This document shows, piece by piece, positions 54,346 through 64,000 of a stretch of DNA of 64,000 bases. Position 1 is the stretch's first letter. Each line of letters begins with the position of its first letter. Below the pieces are notes generated by a model, which ran no database searches, had not been told where the DNA came from, and saw only the letters and a list, made by a program, of their open reading frames with translations. The DNA lies in NCBI GenBank assembly GCA_030141605.1, contig JAQGDQ010002366.1:929160-993159 (forward strand). The letters run 5' to 3'. This DNA comes from Tubiluchus corallicola. Taxonomy: Eukaryota; Priapulida; Priapulimorpha; Priapulimorphida; Tubiluchidae. The position numbers were made by a program, and so were the translations under genes.

Positions 54346-57300
54346 CTACTGATTTGGCCCTAACCCTTGGTTTTCTTTCTCAACATCTTGCTTCCCTTTT
54401 GAATTAGTAGAGCTCTCTGATGGCAGTGCTATTTGTTTTAAAAGTTTTCTTGGCTTAGGTTTCCTGCAAAGCAAAAAGTACAAGACTGAATAGGCCCACA
54501 GAATTTAGTTCACCATTAATATACAAAGCCCGACCAAAATTAACGTAGAACCCTAAGTACAATCCATAGTTTTTCTTCTTTCGACCAGATAATCAGATGT
54601 GGTATCAAACAATTAATAATTGTGGGGTTATTCTGACAATTTTAATCATATTTTCTTTTGAGCTTAAAATCATAAGCTTTATTGCAGTCATTTTCTGGTC
54701 ATTGCTCTGTCAAAGAATGGTAAAATAAATGTTTGTGGGTGCATATCAGCAGCAGCATAGCATTTTTTAAATTTTTAATTCTATGTTCTTATGTTGGCCT
54801 AAAGGACATAACAGTACTTTATCACTATAAAAAGTATTGTTTTGAAGAAGTGCTAAACAACAATTACAAAGCCACAATAAATCATTGGAAGGTTTGTGAA
54901 AACAGCAGGAGTTACTGGAAACTAAATGTTACGAAGGAGACTTTCTTTTTAAATGTGAACGAGTAGTGCTCCACCTTACACAATTACACCTAATACTGCT
55001 GGTACCACCAGTATGCATCATTATTCATTACATATATGACTAACAAGATGCATTTGCCCAGAACAGTGCATGTTTTTTATGAACCAACACTGACTGTCTG
55101 TCTTTTTATTATAATGGACAATGTTTTTAAAAGGCAAAATAAAGAATATACTACTACTACTACTACTAAAAGCAAAGAAACAAGCCCTGCCATTGGGTGC
55201 TATTTTTGAGCACTTGTCTTAAGTCGTAATTTGAAATTGAAACATTCAAGACTAATTTACTCTAAACTGGGGAAAATTACTATTTACCTTTCAAACTTAA
55301 TAACTCAGCTGGCTACATCGCTTTGACACTGAGCCCGCAATTTGCTTTTGAAAACACTAGCATTTGAGGCACTAATTACATCGTTCAGCAAGGTATTCCA
55401 GCAGGGAATAGCTCCTTTGGTGAAAAAATGACCTTTTATATTAGTATGATAGAAACGCTGGAAAAGTTGTATCGAATATCCACGTAAATCATATTGACGA
55501 TGAGTCGGGAAGAAGAGGTCTTACTCAAGATGGTCAACTCGTTCAAAAATTTTTAAACAATGAATGAGATTTATAGTTTTATGGTGATGTACTGTGGTGA
55601 CCAGACAACTGATACATACTCAAGCTTTGGCCGAACCAGTTTTTTATACAGTGTTGGTTATACCAATATCCAGGAAAAAGGCTGTTGATATTTGTGCTAA
55701 ACGTAATACTTTGATGTGCCCTGCAGTTTAACTTCTACAGAAATTGCTAGTTGAATTGCTTGTGATATTTGTAAAAATAGTGGCATAAAGTTTGTGCACT
55801 TATGTTCTTACAAAGATTTGGTGAAGTATAAAAAATATAAAATTGATTTTGTTTGTGCTATTTGTGTTCCTGGTAGAAAGTCATCTAACAAGGAGCCGGA
55901 TTCACAGGATACAAGTGACATCGTTCAATCTTGCGAAAATAAACTTGACCATTTGATTTCTGTTCTCTTTGAAAATTTTAGCTGTATAGCAGACATTTCT
56001 TCTAATAGTTCTAGTGGCAGCAGTAGTTACTCTAGTGGCAATGGCAATCTTATTTCATCAAGTAATGCTAAGAACTTTTATAAAAATTGTTGTGTTTATA
56101 GTTTAGACAGAATTGTAGTTGTAAATAAAGTTGATGACCTTTGTGCCTTTAAAAACAGTGCTGCTATAATAAAAGAATTGAAGAAGATTCCTTACATCTC
56201 CCAAAAAGTTGAATTGGCACATAGCTTAGCTGGTGGAGGTATTGCCCTTTATACTCATTAGGGTGAATCTGCTTCAGATATCATCAGTCACTGGCCTCGA
56301 GGTCAAGTGTATGGTAGTTCAGTTGTAGTCCGTCTGCCAAAGCGTGCTGATCCTAACGCAAAATCTAATGTTTGTTACATTAAAAATGTACCTAGAGACA
56401 ATTACTGGGATAATAATTGTGCAGCAGCTAAAAAAATCTTAATTTTCATCGGAAAAAGTTTCATGAGCGAAATCTTCCCCAGAACAAATTTAAATTGTTG
56501 GAAGCAGAAGTATGTTTTACTTACGCAATTGACATTGCTCTCCTGTTTTTGAGGATTCTTGAGAAATTTGATATTCTTCAAAATTGTTTTTTGATGTAAA
56601 GCATATCTGCCAAAGAAATTTTGATGATAGTTTCAAAAGAAATGTTGAGGAAAAGCTAGCTTCAAAAGATGTTTGTCCAGCAAGGTCTGGAATTCATTGT
56701 TCTTTTGCACTAAAGGAGTATATAATGCAATTAGCCACTTGAAGGCAAGTAAATCACCTGGTCCTGATGAATATCCTCCTGGGTTATTTATACACTGTGG
56801 GAGCAATTTGAAGCACATATTATTGAAGAGTTTTAAGTCATGGACCAATAGAATTCTACAGACAGCTTGGACTTGTGCAAATGTTAAGTTCATCAGGAAA
56901 CAAGGCAAGGATGACTATTATGTACCCTCTTTTTATTGTCGTATTAACTTGACATCATTCATTTGTAAAATTATGGTAAGATTAGTACTTTTTAAATTAA
57001 ATACGGCAATTGATACATATAATATAATAATACTGATACACAACAAGATGGTTTTAGGAAGTTCTGTTCTATAATTCACCCTGTTTACGACTTTGTACAA
57101 ACTATATGTGATGGCTTTAATAATGCTAATCAAACAGTAGCTTGTTTCTTGGATTTGGAGAAAGATTATGACCGTGTATGGCGAGATGGACTTCCTATCA
57201 AGATATATAATGTTCGCATTGCTGGCAGATTACAGTATGGATTAAAGGTTTCTTATCAAACAGACATGCTAGACATCTGATTAATGGCTATCAAGGGCCA

Positions 57301-59441
57301 GTATTGCTTCTTCTAAGGGATTACCAAAAGTGAGTGTTATTTCAGCATCTTTATTCAACATTTTCATAGCTGAAATATGTTCAAGTCTGTACAGGAAAAT
57401 CATTGCAAGCATGCAGATGATGGTACTTTATGGCACACTGATTCAGGTGTCATCAGTCTAGCTTCATTAGTTTGTTCTGATGTGGAACATATTATTAACT
57501 GGCGTTCTTTATGGCATATGTCACTTAATTTAAGTAAAACTGAAGTTACTGTGTTTAGTAGAGTTCCTAATATACTACCTAGTAATTCTCCTTTTTGTGT
57601 TTATAATGTGTTGTTAGAGCAAAATCAATTTCCAAAGCTACTTGGCATAACCCTAGATAAGAAATTAACCTTTCATCCCCCACACTGTCAAACTATGAAT
57701 GAAAGCTAGCAAAGTTCCTTCAGTCGTTAGAGAAATAAGAGGTATTGTTAATATTTCAACTTTGTATAAATAAATGCCTTGTTTGTTCATTGATGAAATA
57801 TGGTGTCATATAGTTAAACGCAAGGCTTTGTCTTTATGTCTTGATCTCCCTTCGACTGCTGGTGTTGAAGTATTGGAGGTTGTTAGTAGTGTACCTCTGT
57901 TACAGAGCTTGCAAAAATTGAATCAAAACCACTATCTAATCCTCTGAAACAACAACTAGAAGATTTTAAAGCAGTTGGTTTGGGTAATATCAGATTTGTT
58001 TCTCTTAAGGCAAAAGCTGCTTCTTTGGCATGGGAGGTGGAGAAGAACTGGAATGCTATTATTTCTCAAGTGGTTCCGGCAGTTGATTTCGATCTAAATG
58101 ACAATTTTACAGATATTCCTGTGGCTAAACCTAACTATTGGAATGTACTAGGATCCTCAAACAATAGGTCAGAGAAGCACAAGAACTTCTTGGGAAAGCC
58201 TTTGTTATAAATTCTTTATGCAGTCTTTCAGATAATGCTGTTTTAGCATTTACAGATGGTTCTTGTACAGACAATCCTGAACAATGTGGAACAGGAGCAG
58301 TAATTTATTCAAATATTCACAATTAATCTTTGTAGCTACAGATACTAAAAATGTTACAGTTTTTTCAGATAGTAAATCTTCAGTAGCATTGTATCTTTAG
58401 GATGATCTTGTAACTGTTACGAAGATCTACATGACAGCATAAAAATTATGTTAAATTTCATTATAGTATTGATATTCATGTTAACTTCTTTGTATAGATT
58501 CTTGGACATCGTAATATTATTAGAAATGATCTTACTGATTCCTTCACTAAAAGGGCTGCCCATGATGCTCAATTTGTGGTCATAAATTCCTGTATTTACA
58601 GTTTGCAAGATGTCAGGAATGCAAGCCGGTAACTTTACTACGTAAATGGTAGTTTCGACGGAATCACTAGCTTCAAATGGTAGATTCTTCTATAATTTGT
58701 GTTCACCAGTGGTTTTCAATAGAAGACTTGATTTTCAAAGTCACAGTTTTCCAAACTTACGCAAGAGCTACCCTAAACTTAATTATTATTTTCATACAAT
58801 TGGAAGTGTCGATTCTCCACCATGCGAGTGCGGTTCAATGAAATCTACAGAGCGCATTTTTGTCTGTGTGTGTGTTTCATGCTAATCAAAGGGATGTGCT
58901 GCTATACAATATTTCCCGACATACTGGCTATCTAATTTCAAGCTAGTTGATATATTGTCAAGTGAAGTCACTGATCAAGATGATGTTGATATTGAGGCCA
59001 TAATAAAAGATCTTTGTTCTTTTATAGATAGCACTGAACATGTAAACAAGAAGACATTATTATATTGCGTCAGTGTTGGAGTCATAGCCCCGTATTCTCT
59101 TTATTTCAGCTTTTAGAAAGAAATTTTTCATTGTGATAAACAGCTCATATTGTGGTGATTAAAGCATTTATGTGAACATTTTGTCGATAAACATTGGTGT
59201 GGAGACTATAACTTTAAATGACATTATTTATTATTAAGTAATATTCTTACATTTGAGCTCCCATTAGTCTTGCTGTGCAAGGTGAGAAAATGTTATCAGT
59301 TGGACTTGTAAATTTTTCGCTCAGCTGCCTTCTTTTTACAGCGGCTGGCGTTGCCGATGCTGTTCCGCAATTTTGTGATGATGCCAAGTTATGGGCCTGG
59401 CTGACATCATTCAAAGAACCTGCGTCTTCTTTGGTTGACAT
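54346..59441 (-). CDS. unnamed small basic protein, two exons (59251-59441, 54346-54463)
   Basis: Exon 1 starts at an ATG (59441-59439, A at -3), reads MSTKEDAG, and ends at donor CAAAT|GTAAGA in phase 2. Exon 2 follows acceptor TTTGCTTTGCAG and starts with one base that completes the codon, then KPKPRKLLKQIALPSESS, ending QGLGPNQ before TAG. The product is about 102 residues. The most conserved-looking part is KRRQLSEKFTSPTDNIFSPC, which holds two Ser/Thr-Pro sites, followed by a basic patch. I do not recognise the family; a small nuclear or cell-cycle phosphoprotein is only a guess. If exon 1 were unspliced, the frame would stop immediately after the donor, with an AATAAA at 59232-59227, so a one-exon 64-residue form is also possible. 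The intron (54464-59250) is full of LINE remnants. Confidence 0.55.
54980..55170 (+). mobile_element. LINE 3' end with TAC tail
   Basis: A non-coding segment ends GGCAAAATAAAGAATA followed by about six TAC triplets (55150-55168), the AATAAA-plus-tandem-tail arrangement of LINE 3' ends. The opposite orientation, as a tail of the adjacent minus-strand fragment, is possible but lacks a signal on that strand. Confidence 0.4.
55225..55690 (-). mobile_element. LINE reverse transcriptase C-terminal fragment
   Basis: The minus-strand translation reads LYKKLVRPKLEYVSVVWSPQ, then FERVDHLE, a degraded middle, then GAIPCWNTLLNDVISASNAS and VFKSKL. This is the typical order of the region after the polymerase motifs in CR1/L2-like LINEs. 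Stops interrupt it. It is oriented opposite to the larger LINE that follows. Confidence 0.75.
55735..59060 (+). mobile_element. degenerate LINE with reverse transcriptase and RNase H
   Basis: The order on + is as follows. At 55755-56261, an ORF1-like frame with zinc-finger-like cysteines (CDIC ... HLC ... CAIC). At 56673-57000, the start of the reverse transcriptase (SKSPGPDEYPPGLF, then GKDDYYVPSFYCRINLTSF). At 57140-57190, CFLDLEKDYDRVWRDGL. At 57377-57709, the catalytic-loop region, reading HADD where YADD or FADD is expected. At 58240-58310, RNase H (AFTDGSCTDNPEQCGTGAVI). At 58490-58560, LGHRN ... SFTKRAA. Near 58823, a CECG motif typical of the segment after RNase H. At least four frameshifts or stops and no intact endonuclease mean it is inactive. 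RNase H points to an I/R1/Jockey-group lineage. It lies in the intron of the minus-strand small gene. Confidence 0.85.
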
Positions 59442-62807: not shown

Positions 62808-64000
62808 CTACATAAGATCCGGGAACAAGTCTGAAAAAGACTCTTGCCAAGCTTCTTCATCAGTAGCTGGGGATGCTGCACTTACAGGTGAGCCAAGATC
62901 ACTTTCACCTGTGCTATACCCAGATTCCGAAGACGTGTTGGGCGACTTGCCATGTATTCCAGGCGTGTTTAAAGGTGAACACGAAGACAACATATTATCC
63001 CATATGCTGGGATTGTAGTGCGTATTAACCTTTAATGGAGTGTTAATATCGGTTGATAGTTCACTACGAATTCCTTCAATACCGGTACAGGATACATTAG
63101 AAAATCCACCAGATTGCAGAAAAGAATCAAACTCACTAAGATCAAGATCCATTAATTCTGAAAAATCATCAGTTGATGGCAAAGTATTGCCAAGTTCTGT
63201 GTATTCTGTAAGAGAATTTCCTCTATAAAGTACATCGACTTCTGAAGAAGTGTCTTTGTTAGCACTATAATTATCATTAGTGCAACTGATATCCTGATCG
63301 ACAATGGAAACACTTTCCGCTTCTGTTTTTACTTCTTCTTCATGATCAATTGAAGTGAGCTCATCGGCATTTTCAGCCTTGTAGTAAATGTGGTCGAATC
63401 TTATGAATTCATTGATGGCGTCCACATTCTTTGGTGTGCTCCCCACCATTTTATGATTGGATTTAAAACGCTTGTCTTCAACTTTGGCATTCTGAAATAA
63501 AAATGATTTATAAATATCTTGCTAAATTGAAACACTCAACGTAACAGTAAAAGTAGAATCTTAAAATCCAGATACAAAAACTTTGCCGTCACGCACACTT
63601 CTACATGTGTATTTGTGCACAAGAAATTTATTAAAAATAGCTAAGACAACAGCTGACATTCAACAAGTCCTTCAGTTTTCTTAAAAATTTAAACAGCCTG
63701 ACTCCTGACAAATTTAAACTGATCATACAGTATGTCAAAAATGAACGCAATACGGATTTTACAAATATATCTTTTACAGTTTTAAGAGATAAAATCGCCA
63801 ACAAACCTGCTCTGACTGTTCAACTTCATCATCCGTTTCAGACGAAAGTCCGTCAACGATGAAGGATAAGAGATCTCGCTCAGTACAATCAGGAACAGAA
63901 ACGTTACTGAAAATGCCATCCAATGAGAGACTGCACGAGCCTGCTCCTGCTGCAGAGGAAGCATTTTGAATACTGCGGATTCAACTGACTCGTCCTTTCT
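62808..64000 (-). CDS. XBP1: XBP1 transcription factor, 3' part (exons 63807-64000+ and 62808-63491)
   Basis: The conventional exon 64000-63807 ends CAGAGCAG|GTTTGT and joins the last exon at acceptor TTTCAG|AATGCC (63491). After IRE1-type removal of 63975-63953 the frame reads RKDESVES-AAGAGSC, then DGLSSETDDEVEQSEQ-NAKVEDK, then VDAINEFIRFDHIYYK, and ends WQESFSDLFPDLM before TAG at 62808. The AINE-IRFDHIY block and the Trp/Phe-rich LFPxL-like end are hallmarks of the XBP1s activation domain. The last exon gives 227 residues. The bZIP domain lies upstream, beyond the window end. XBP1s drives the unfolded-protein-response transcription programme. Acidic, serine-rich composition fits a transactivation domain. 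I am confident of the family. Confidence 0.95.
63401..64000 (-). CDS. XBP1: XBP1u unspliced frame with hydrophobic region and arrest-like peptide
   Basis: Without IRE1 cleavage, the frame continues as ESAVFKMLPLQQEQARAVSH, then a hydrophobic segment WMAFSVTFLFLIVL, and after the conventional splice (63807 to 63491) ends IIKWWGAHQRMWTPSMNS with TAA at 63403-63401. Vertebrate XBP1u has the same layout: a hydrophobic region 2 that brings the mRNA-ribosome complex to the ER membrane, and a C-terminal arrest peptide ending WGRHQPSWKPLMN (recalled). The Trp-Gly, His-Gln, Trp, Pro and Met-Asn positions line up. This frame overlaps the XBP1s frame throughout, so both are coded by the same bases. Confidence 0.85.
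63953..63975 (-). other. IRE1-type unconventional XBP1 intron, 23 nt
   Basis: On the minus strand, ATCCG|CAGTA at the 5' end and CTCTG|CAGCAG at the 3' end bound 23 nt. The 5' site sits in a seven-base loop CCGCAGT on a perfect 6-bp stem (TTGAAT/ATTCAA, 63966-63984). The 3' site sits in the loop CTGCAGC on a stem of four pairs plus a wobble (63944-63960). Both loops fit the CNG|CNGN rule for IRE1 cleavage. Removal shifts the frame by two modulo three, as the 26-nt vertebrate intron does. Confidence 0.95.

Follow-up and report, generated by a model that had tools for sequence, protein, structure and literature searches.

In mammals, the hydrophobic segment HR2 of unspliced XBP1 (XBP1u) has a role in targeting that is exerted via SRP and Sec61. 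Eight arrest-optimal residues, Y241, P244, W249 to H252, W256, and P258, emerged when the human XBP1u arrest peptide was subjected to saturation mutagenesis; any substitution at Y241 or R251 weakened arrest, C247K was among the strongest arrest-enhancing changes, and Ser was fixed at position 255 in 90 homologues (PMC6624018). HR2 and the pause are separated by 52 residues in human (PMC6624018). Conservation of HR2 and of the pausing region in Drosophila Xbp1 was described in 2014; deletion of both lowered splicing there without abolishing it (PMC4138184). In 2021, ribosome profiling revealed a stall on fly Xbp1 at the same aligned position; five residues (W, G, Q, W, and P) are invariant from fly to human, and the pause falls on Met-Asn (P and A sites) in human, mouse, and zebrafish but on different codons in fly (PMC8152447). 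For one of the five residues, PMC8152447 prints Glu at −7, which was taken here as Gln, as in human. Since fly pausing was reported previously (PMC4138184, PMC8152447), pausing older than vertebrates is not a new idea, and a bilaterian age of XBP1u pausing had already been deduced from the Drosophila reports. What is added here is a well-supported further XBP1u case, the mechanism of which is very likely the known one.

The XBP1 locus and its putative IRE1 intron

The window, i.e. the whole analysed stretch of 64,000 nt, truncates an intact XBP1 gene on the minus strand, the remainder of which was located on the same contig. Judging by GT-AG borders and open frames, the coding sequence is predicted to be split over four exons, located in extended window numbering at 67432-67215, 64992-64896, 64111-63807, and 63491-62808. 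The following features were assigned:

67432-67215 and 64992-64896 (extended numbering), minus strand: exons for the N-terminal end and for the basic portion of the bZIP (Pfam)
63807-64000, minus strand: part within the window of the exon that carries the last stretch of the shared region together with the IRE1 intron and HR2; the exon starts at 64111 in extended numbering
63946-63984, minus strand: twin stem-loops with 7-nt loops CCGCAG/U and CUGCAG/C, in the form of an IRE1 substrate (RNAfold)
63950-63972, minus strand: 23-nt IRE1 intron, CCGCAG/TATTCAAAATGCTTCCTCTGCAG/C
63854-63925, minus strand: HR2-like hydrophobic segment HWMAFSVTFLFLIVLSEISYPSSL, unspliced frame (Kyte-Doolittle mean 1.85)
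63492-63806, minus strand: ordinary spliceosomal intron of 315 nt (GT...AG), which separates HR2 from the arrest peptide
62808-63491, minus strand: last coding exon, with the XBP1u tail and then the C-terminal domain of XBP1s to TAG
63404-63463, minus strand: arrest-peptide homologue NPIIKWWGAHQRMWTPSMNS, unspliced frame (alignment to the human peptide, PDB 6r5q)
63412-63410 and 63409-63407, minus strand: predicted pause codons Met (P site) and Asn (A site)
63401-63403, minus strand: XBP1u stop codon TAA, one codon later than in human
63381-63425, minus strand: conserved motif VDAINEFIRFDHIYY of the spliced frame, overlapping the pause codons

The predicted products comprise 236 aa for XBP1u and 426 aa for XBP1s. 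The bZIP is of the XBP1 type (Pfam bZIP_1, E 5e-12; bZIP_2, E 6.6e-10), and the KMKNREAAQTARDRKKARM exon is 68% identical to human across the matched stretch. The XBP1 locus was found on three contigs, C1787, C2138, and C2264 (L004-L006), with zero differences across 5.5 kb. Divergent paralogues were therefore rejected in favour of assembly duplicates, so that only one new sequence is available for comparison. Neither XBP1 relatives nor the DNA pattern of the arrest peptide were found in the scanned viral and prokaryote contigs, and the PDB held no relative of the XBP1s stretch. Downstream of XBP1, at 55755-58600 of the window, broken retroelement-like frames were observed, including an RNase H-like stretch AFTDGSCTDNPEQCGTGAVIYSN.

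The putative IRE1 intron is a short frameshifting intron at CNG-CNG sites (CCGCAG/...CTGCAG/C), with a length of 23 nt compared with 26 nt in human. Its removal moves the frame to XBP1s. For structure prediction, the mRNA around the site was folded with 24 or 30 nt of flanking sequence, and each predicted loop contains a cut site; the human XBP1 site, in the sequence we assume for it, gave twin stem-loops as well when folded in the same way. IRE1 with kinase and RNase is present in the genome (E 3e-39; locus L009). A second, divergent IRE1/RNase L-like kinase-RNase frame was observed at G000:C1752:323567-323863, with identical copies (L010, L011, and L012). The three copies compared, out of six matches, are identical over 3,297 nt, as expected of assembly duplicates. 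Because LHGGLKPSN replaces the usual HRD motif, this frame probably encodes a pseudokinase.

Past the IRE1 site, no stop interrupts the unspliced frame for 77 complete codons, an open stretch for which the chance over XBP1s is about 0.025. The best hydrophobic 19-mer of HR2 ends 51 residues before the predicted pause Met; in what we take to be the human XBP1u sequence, two equal-best 19-mers end 52 and 53 residues before M260. The spacing at this locus is thus close to the human one of about 52 residues. The hydrophobicity of HR2 is weakly above the expectation from XBP1s (P 0.05 to 0.24). It was rejected as independent proof, since XBP1s codons partly force it.

Two further observations concern the genome as a whole. 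TTAGGG arrays are common, and a Hox gene at L017 (G000:C2201:12741-12914) bears the tail KKENQALKEMKEQ after the homeodomain, which resembles the Ubx/abdA (UbdA peptide) signature of protostomes. As a tentative lead for placing the organism, both are compatible with a protostome outside the arthropods.

The unspliced tail and the human arrest peptide

On the minus strand, the last XBP1 exon opens with the 91 bases at 63491-63401, which run to the stop codon that closes the unspliced frame. As a reference, human residues 241-261 were used; they were compared with PDB 6r5q and related entries, and the letters were confirmed in 6r5q up to M260, with the exception of the engineered S255A. The original prediction, that this unspliced frame lines up without gaps with the human end and that the same bases also encode the VDAINEFIRFDHIYY motif, was borne out on both points: 9 of 21 residues are identical (P244, W249, G250, H252, Q253, W256, P258, M260, and N261), the pattern W-G-x-H-Q-x-x-W-x-P-x-M-N is reproduced exactly, and both frames could be read. 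Beyond that prediction, P244 was found to match, and IRE1 intron, HR2, and bZIP were found at the right spacing. When all six frames of the window were scanned with human 241-261, this site ranked first, and the runners-up reached seven identities, twice among about 31,900 stop-free 21-mers. Upstream of the peptide block, the unspliced tails here and in human share ungapped identities of 3, 1, and 0 of 19, which indicates that conservation is local to the arrest peptide.

Also, the five residues invariant from fly to human are all present if Glu at −7 is read as Gln, and of the eight residues optimal for arrest in human, six are retained (P244, W249, G250, H252, W256, and P258). The two others, Y241 and R251, are V and A here; in human they are graded contributors and do not strictly define the peptide. 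Position 255 is Met. Taken together, the tail of this invertebrate XBP1u is with high probability the conserved translational arrest peptide, and a pause is predicted.

A degenerate or weakened relic, related by descent to the human peptide but without a working pause in this lineage, is an unlikely explanation. Such a relic would fit Y241V and R251A, which affect residues where every human substitution weakened arrest, and the unusual S255M. However, HR2, its spacing, the open frame, and the other key residues were all retained, C247K strengthened arrest strongly in human, and the fly peptide stalls although it has only five residues in common with vertebrates. Considering the six of eight optimal residues kept, the strengthening C247K, the changes at Y241 and R251, and Met255, a working pause is likely for this XBP1u, while its strength is not predictable from these residues.

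Constraint from the overlapping XBP1s frame

Each codon of the unspliced frame consists of the second and the wobble base of one XBP1s codon, followed by the first base of the next. With this phase, XBP1s wobble bases always fall on the second position of unspliced codons. For the analysis of this overlap, the XBP1s protein was held fixed and synonymous codons were randomised under the condition of an open unspliced frame; the test covers one comparison, i.e. one invertebrate gene versus human. With XBP1s fixed, the human residue is attainable at 11 of 21 positions and present at nine of these 11. For at least nine identities in an open frame, exact calculation yields probabilities of 6.1e-4 (uniform codons) and 2.0e-4 (codon usage of the gene), and sampling gave concordant values. 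The BLOSUM score was reached in 9e-5 or 3e-5 of the samples, which are rough values based on 7 and 2 matches, and all five fly-to-human invariant residues are obtained jointly by chance with a probability of 1.8e-3 or 1.1e-4. The match in the unspliced frame exceeds what the overlapping XBP1s forces.

These numbers bear on the reading that conserved XBP1s residues (VG, AINE) produce the similarity as a side effect, without a function of its own. The original prediction had cautioned that some similarity could be forced in this way. In favour of this reading, the XBP1s residues V, G, A, I, N, and E are common to human and this XBP1, and with XBP1s given, the likelihood of M260 and of N261 is about 50-74% each. 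Its further point, that the idea would fail if XBP1s explained the match fully, is answered by the exact probabilities. Each matching residue also demands a specific wobble base of XBP1s, and H252 and Q253 match despite different underlying XBP1s residues (T-P here and presumably S-S in human), so that a mere by-product is very unlikely. Wobble identity to a presumed human cDNA is 8 of 14 over the peptide versus 5 of 12 in a short spliced-only stretch, which are few sites. Since the former is not clearly higher, support comes from which residues match and not from overall wobble conservation.

It is extremely improbable that the wobble bases are maintained through a structure of the XBP1 mRNA or an RNA-protein site on it: two hairpins are predicted across the region, but it does not fold unusually well (z = −1.2; equalled or surpassed by 24 of 200 shuffles), by which RNA structure was rejected as the cause, and the conserved residues are those found important by mutagenesis of the human peptide (PMC6624018).

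Predicted pausing and comparison with known systems

With the arrest peptide as the preferred reading, the anatomy required for pausing-assisted membrane targeting is present in full. From the human and fly work we infer pause, targeting, and splicing in the following order. Before splicing by IRE1, the ribosome would read the unspliced frame and thereby produce the hydrophobic HR2. About 51 codons after HR2, it would slow down at the point where Met occupies the P site and Asn the A site, as the Trp-Gly-x-His-Gln-x-x-Trp turn lodges in the exit tunnel. HR2 would just have left the ribosome at this pause, and SRP and Sec61 could thus carry the complex of mRNA and ribosome to the ER. There, IRE1 would cut out the 23-nt intron, the frame would shift, and XBP1s would be made. 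Since the stop codon lies one codon later than in human (Met-Asn-Ser-stop, 63401-63412), the predicted pause does not adjoin it.

The locus would be a second protostome example besides fly, apparently a non-arthropod one, with the Met-Asn pause codons of vertebrates. Together with the excess over what XBP1s forces, this supports the view that pausing-assisted targeting of XBP1 mRNA arose once, before protostomes and deuterostomes diverged. If the organism is indeed a non-arthropod protostome, a second line of protostomes would possess the arrest peptide, and Met-Asn would be the simpler ancestral state. Tentatively, and with some doubt, the Met-Asn site may be ancestral in bilaterians and the fly state derived, and arrest may have been retuned here by C247K (stronger), R251A and Y241V (weaker), and Met255. 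The peptide also offers a natural variant (K247, A251, M255) for asking which residues set arrest strength.

An analysis of the overlapping XBP1 frames was published by Nekrutenko and He (2006; cited in PMC2329644). In contrast to that work, our test addressed one invertebrate gene and the arrest peptide alone. For mammals, Nekrutenko and He are said to have concluded that the evolution of the overlapping frames can be accounted for only if unspliced XBP1 has a function.

With the human arrest peptide (237-261; PDB 6r5q), the peptide described here has in common its C-terminal position in the unspliced frame, P244, and Met-Asn at the pause site. It differs by Y241V, C247K, R251A, P254R, S255M, K257T, and L259S, and XBP1u has one additional Ser ahead of the stop codon. 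Drosophila Xbp1, likewise from a protostome, shares the same five residues and HR2. However, fly has Ala at position 255 and other P- and A-site codons, whereas the XBP1u described here has Met at 255 and has kept Met-Asn as in vertebrates.
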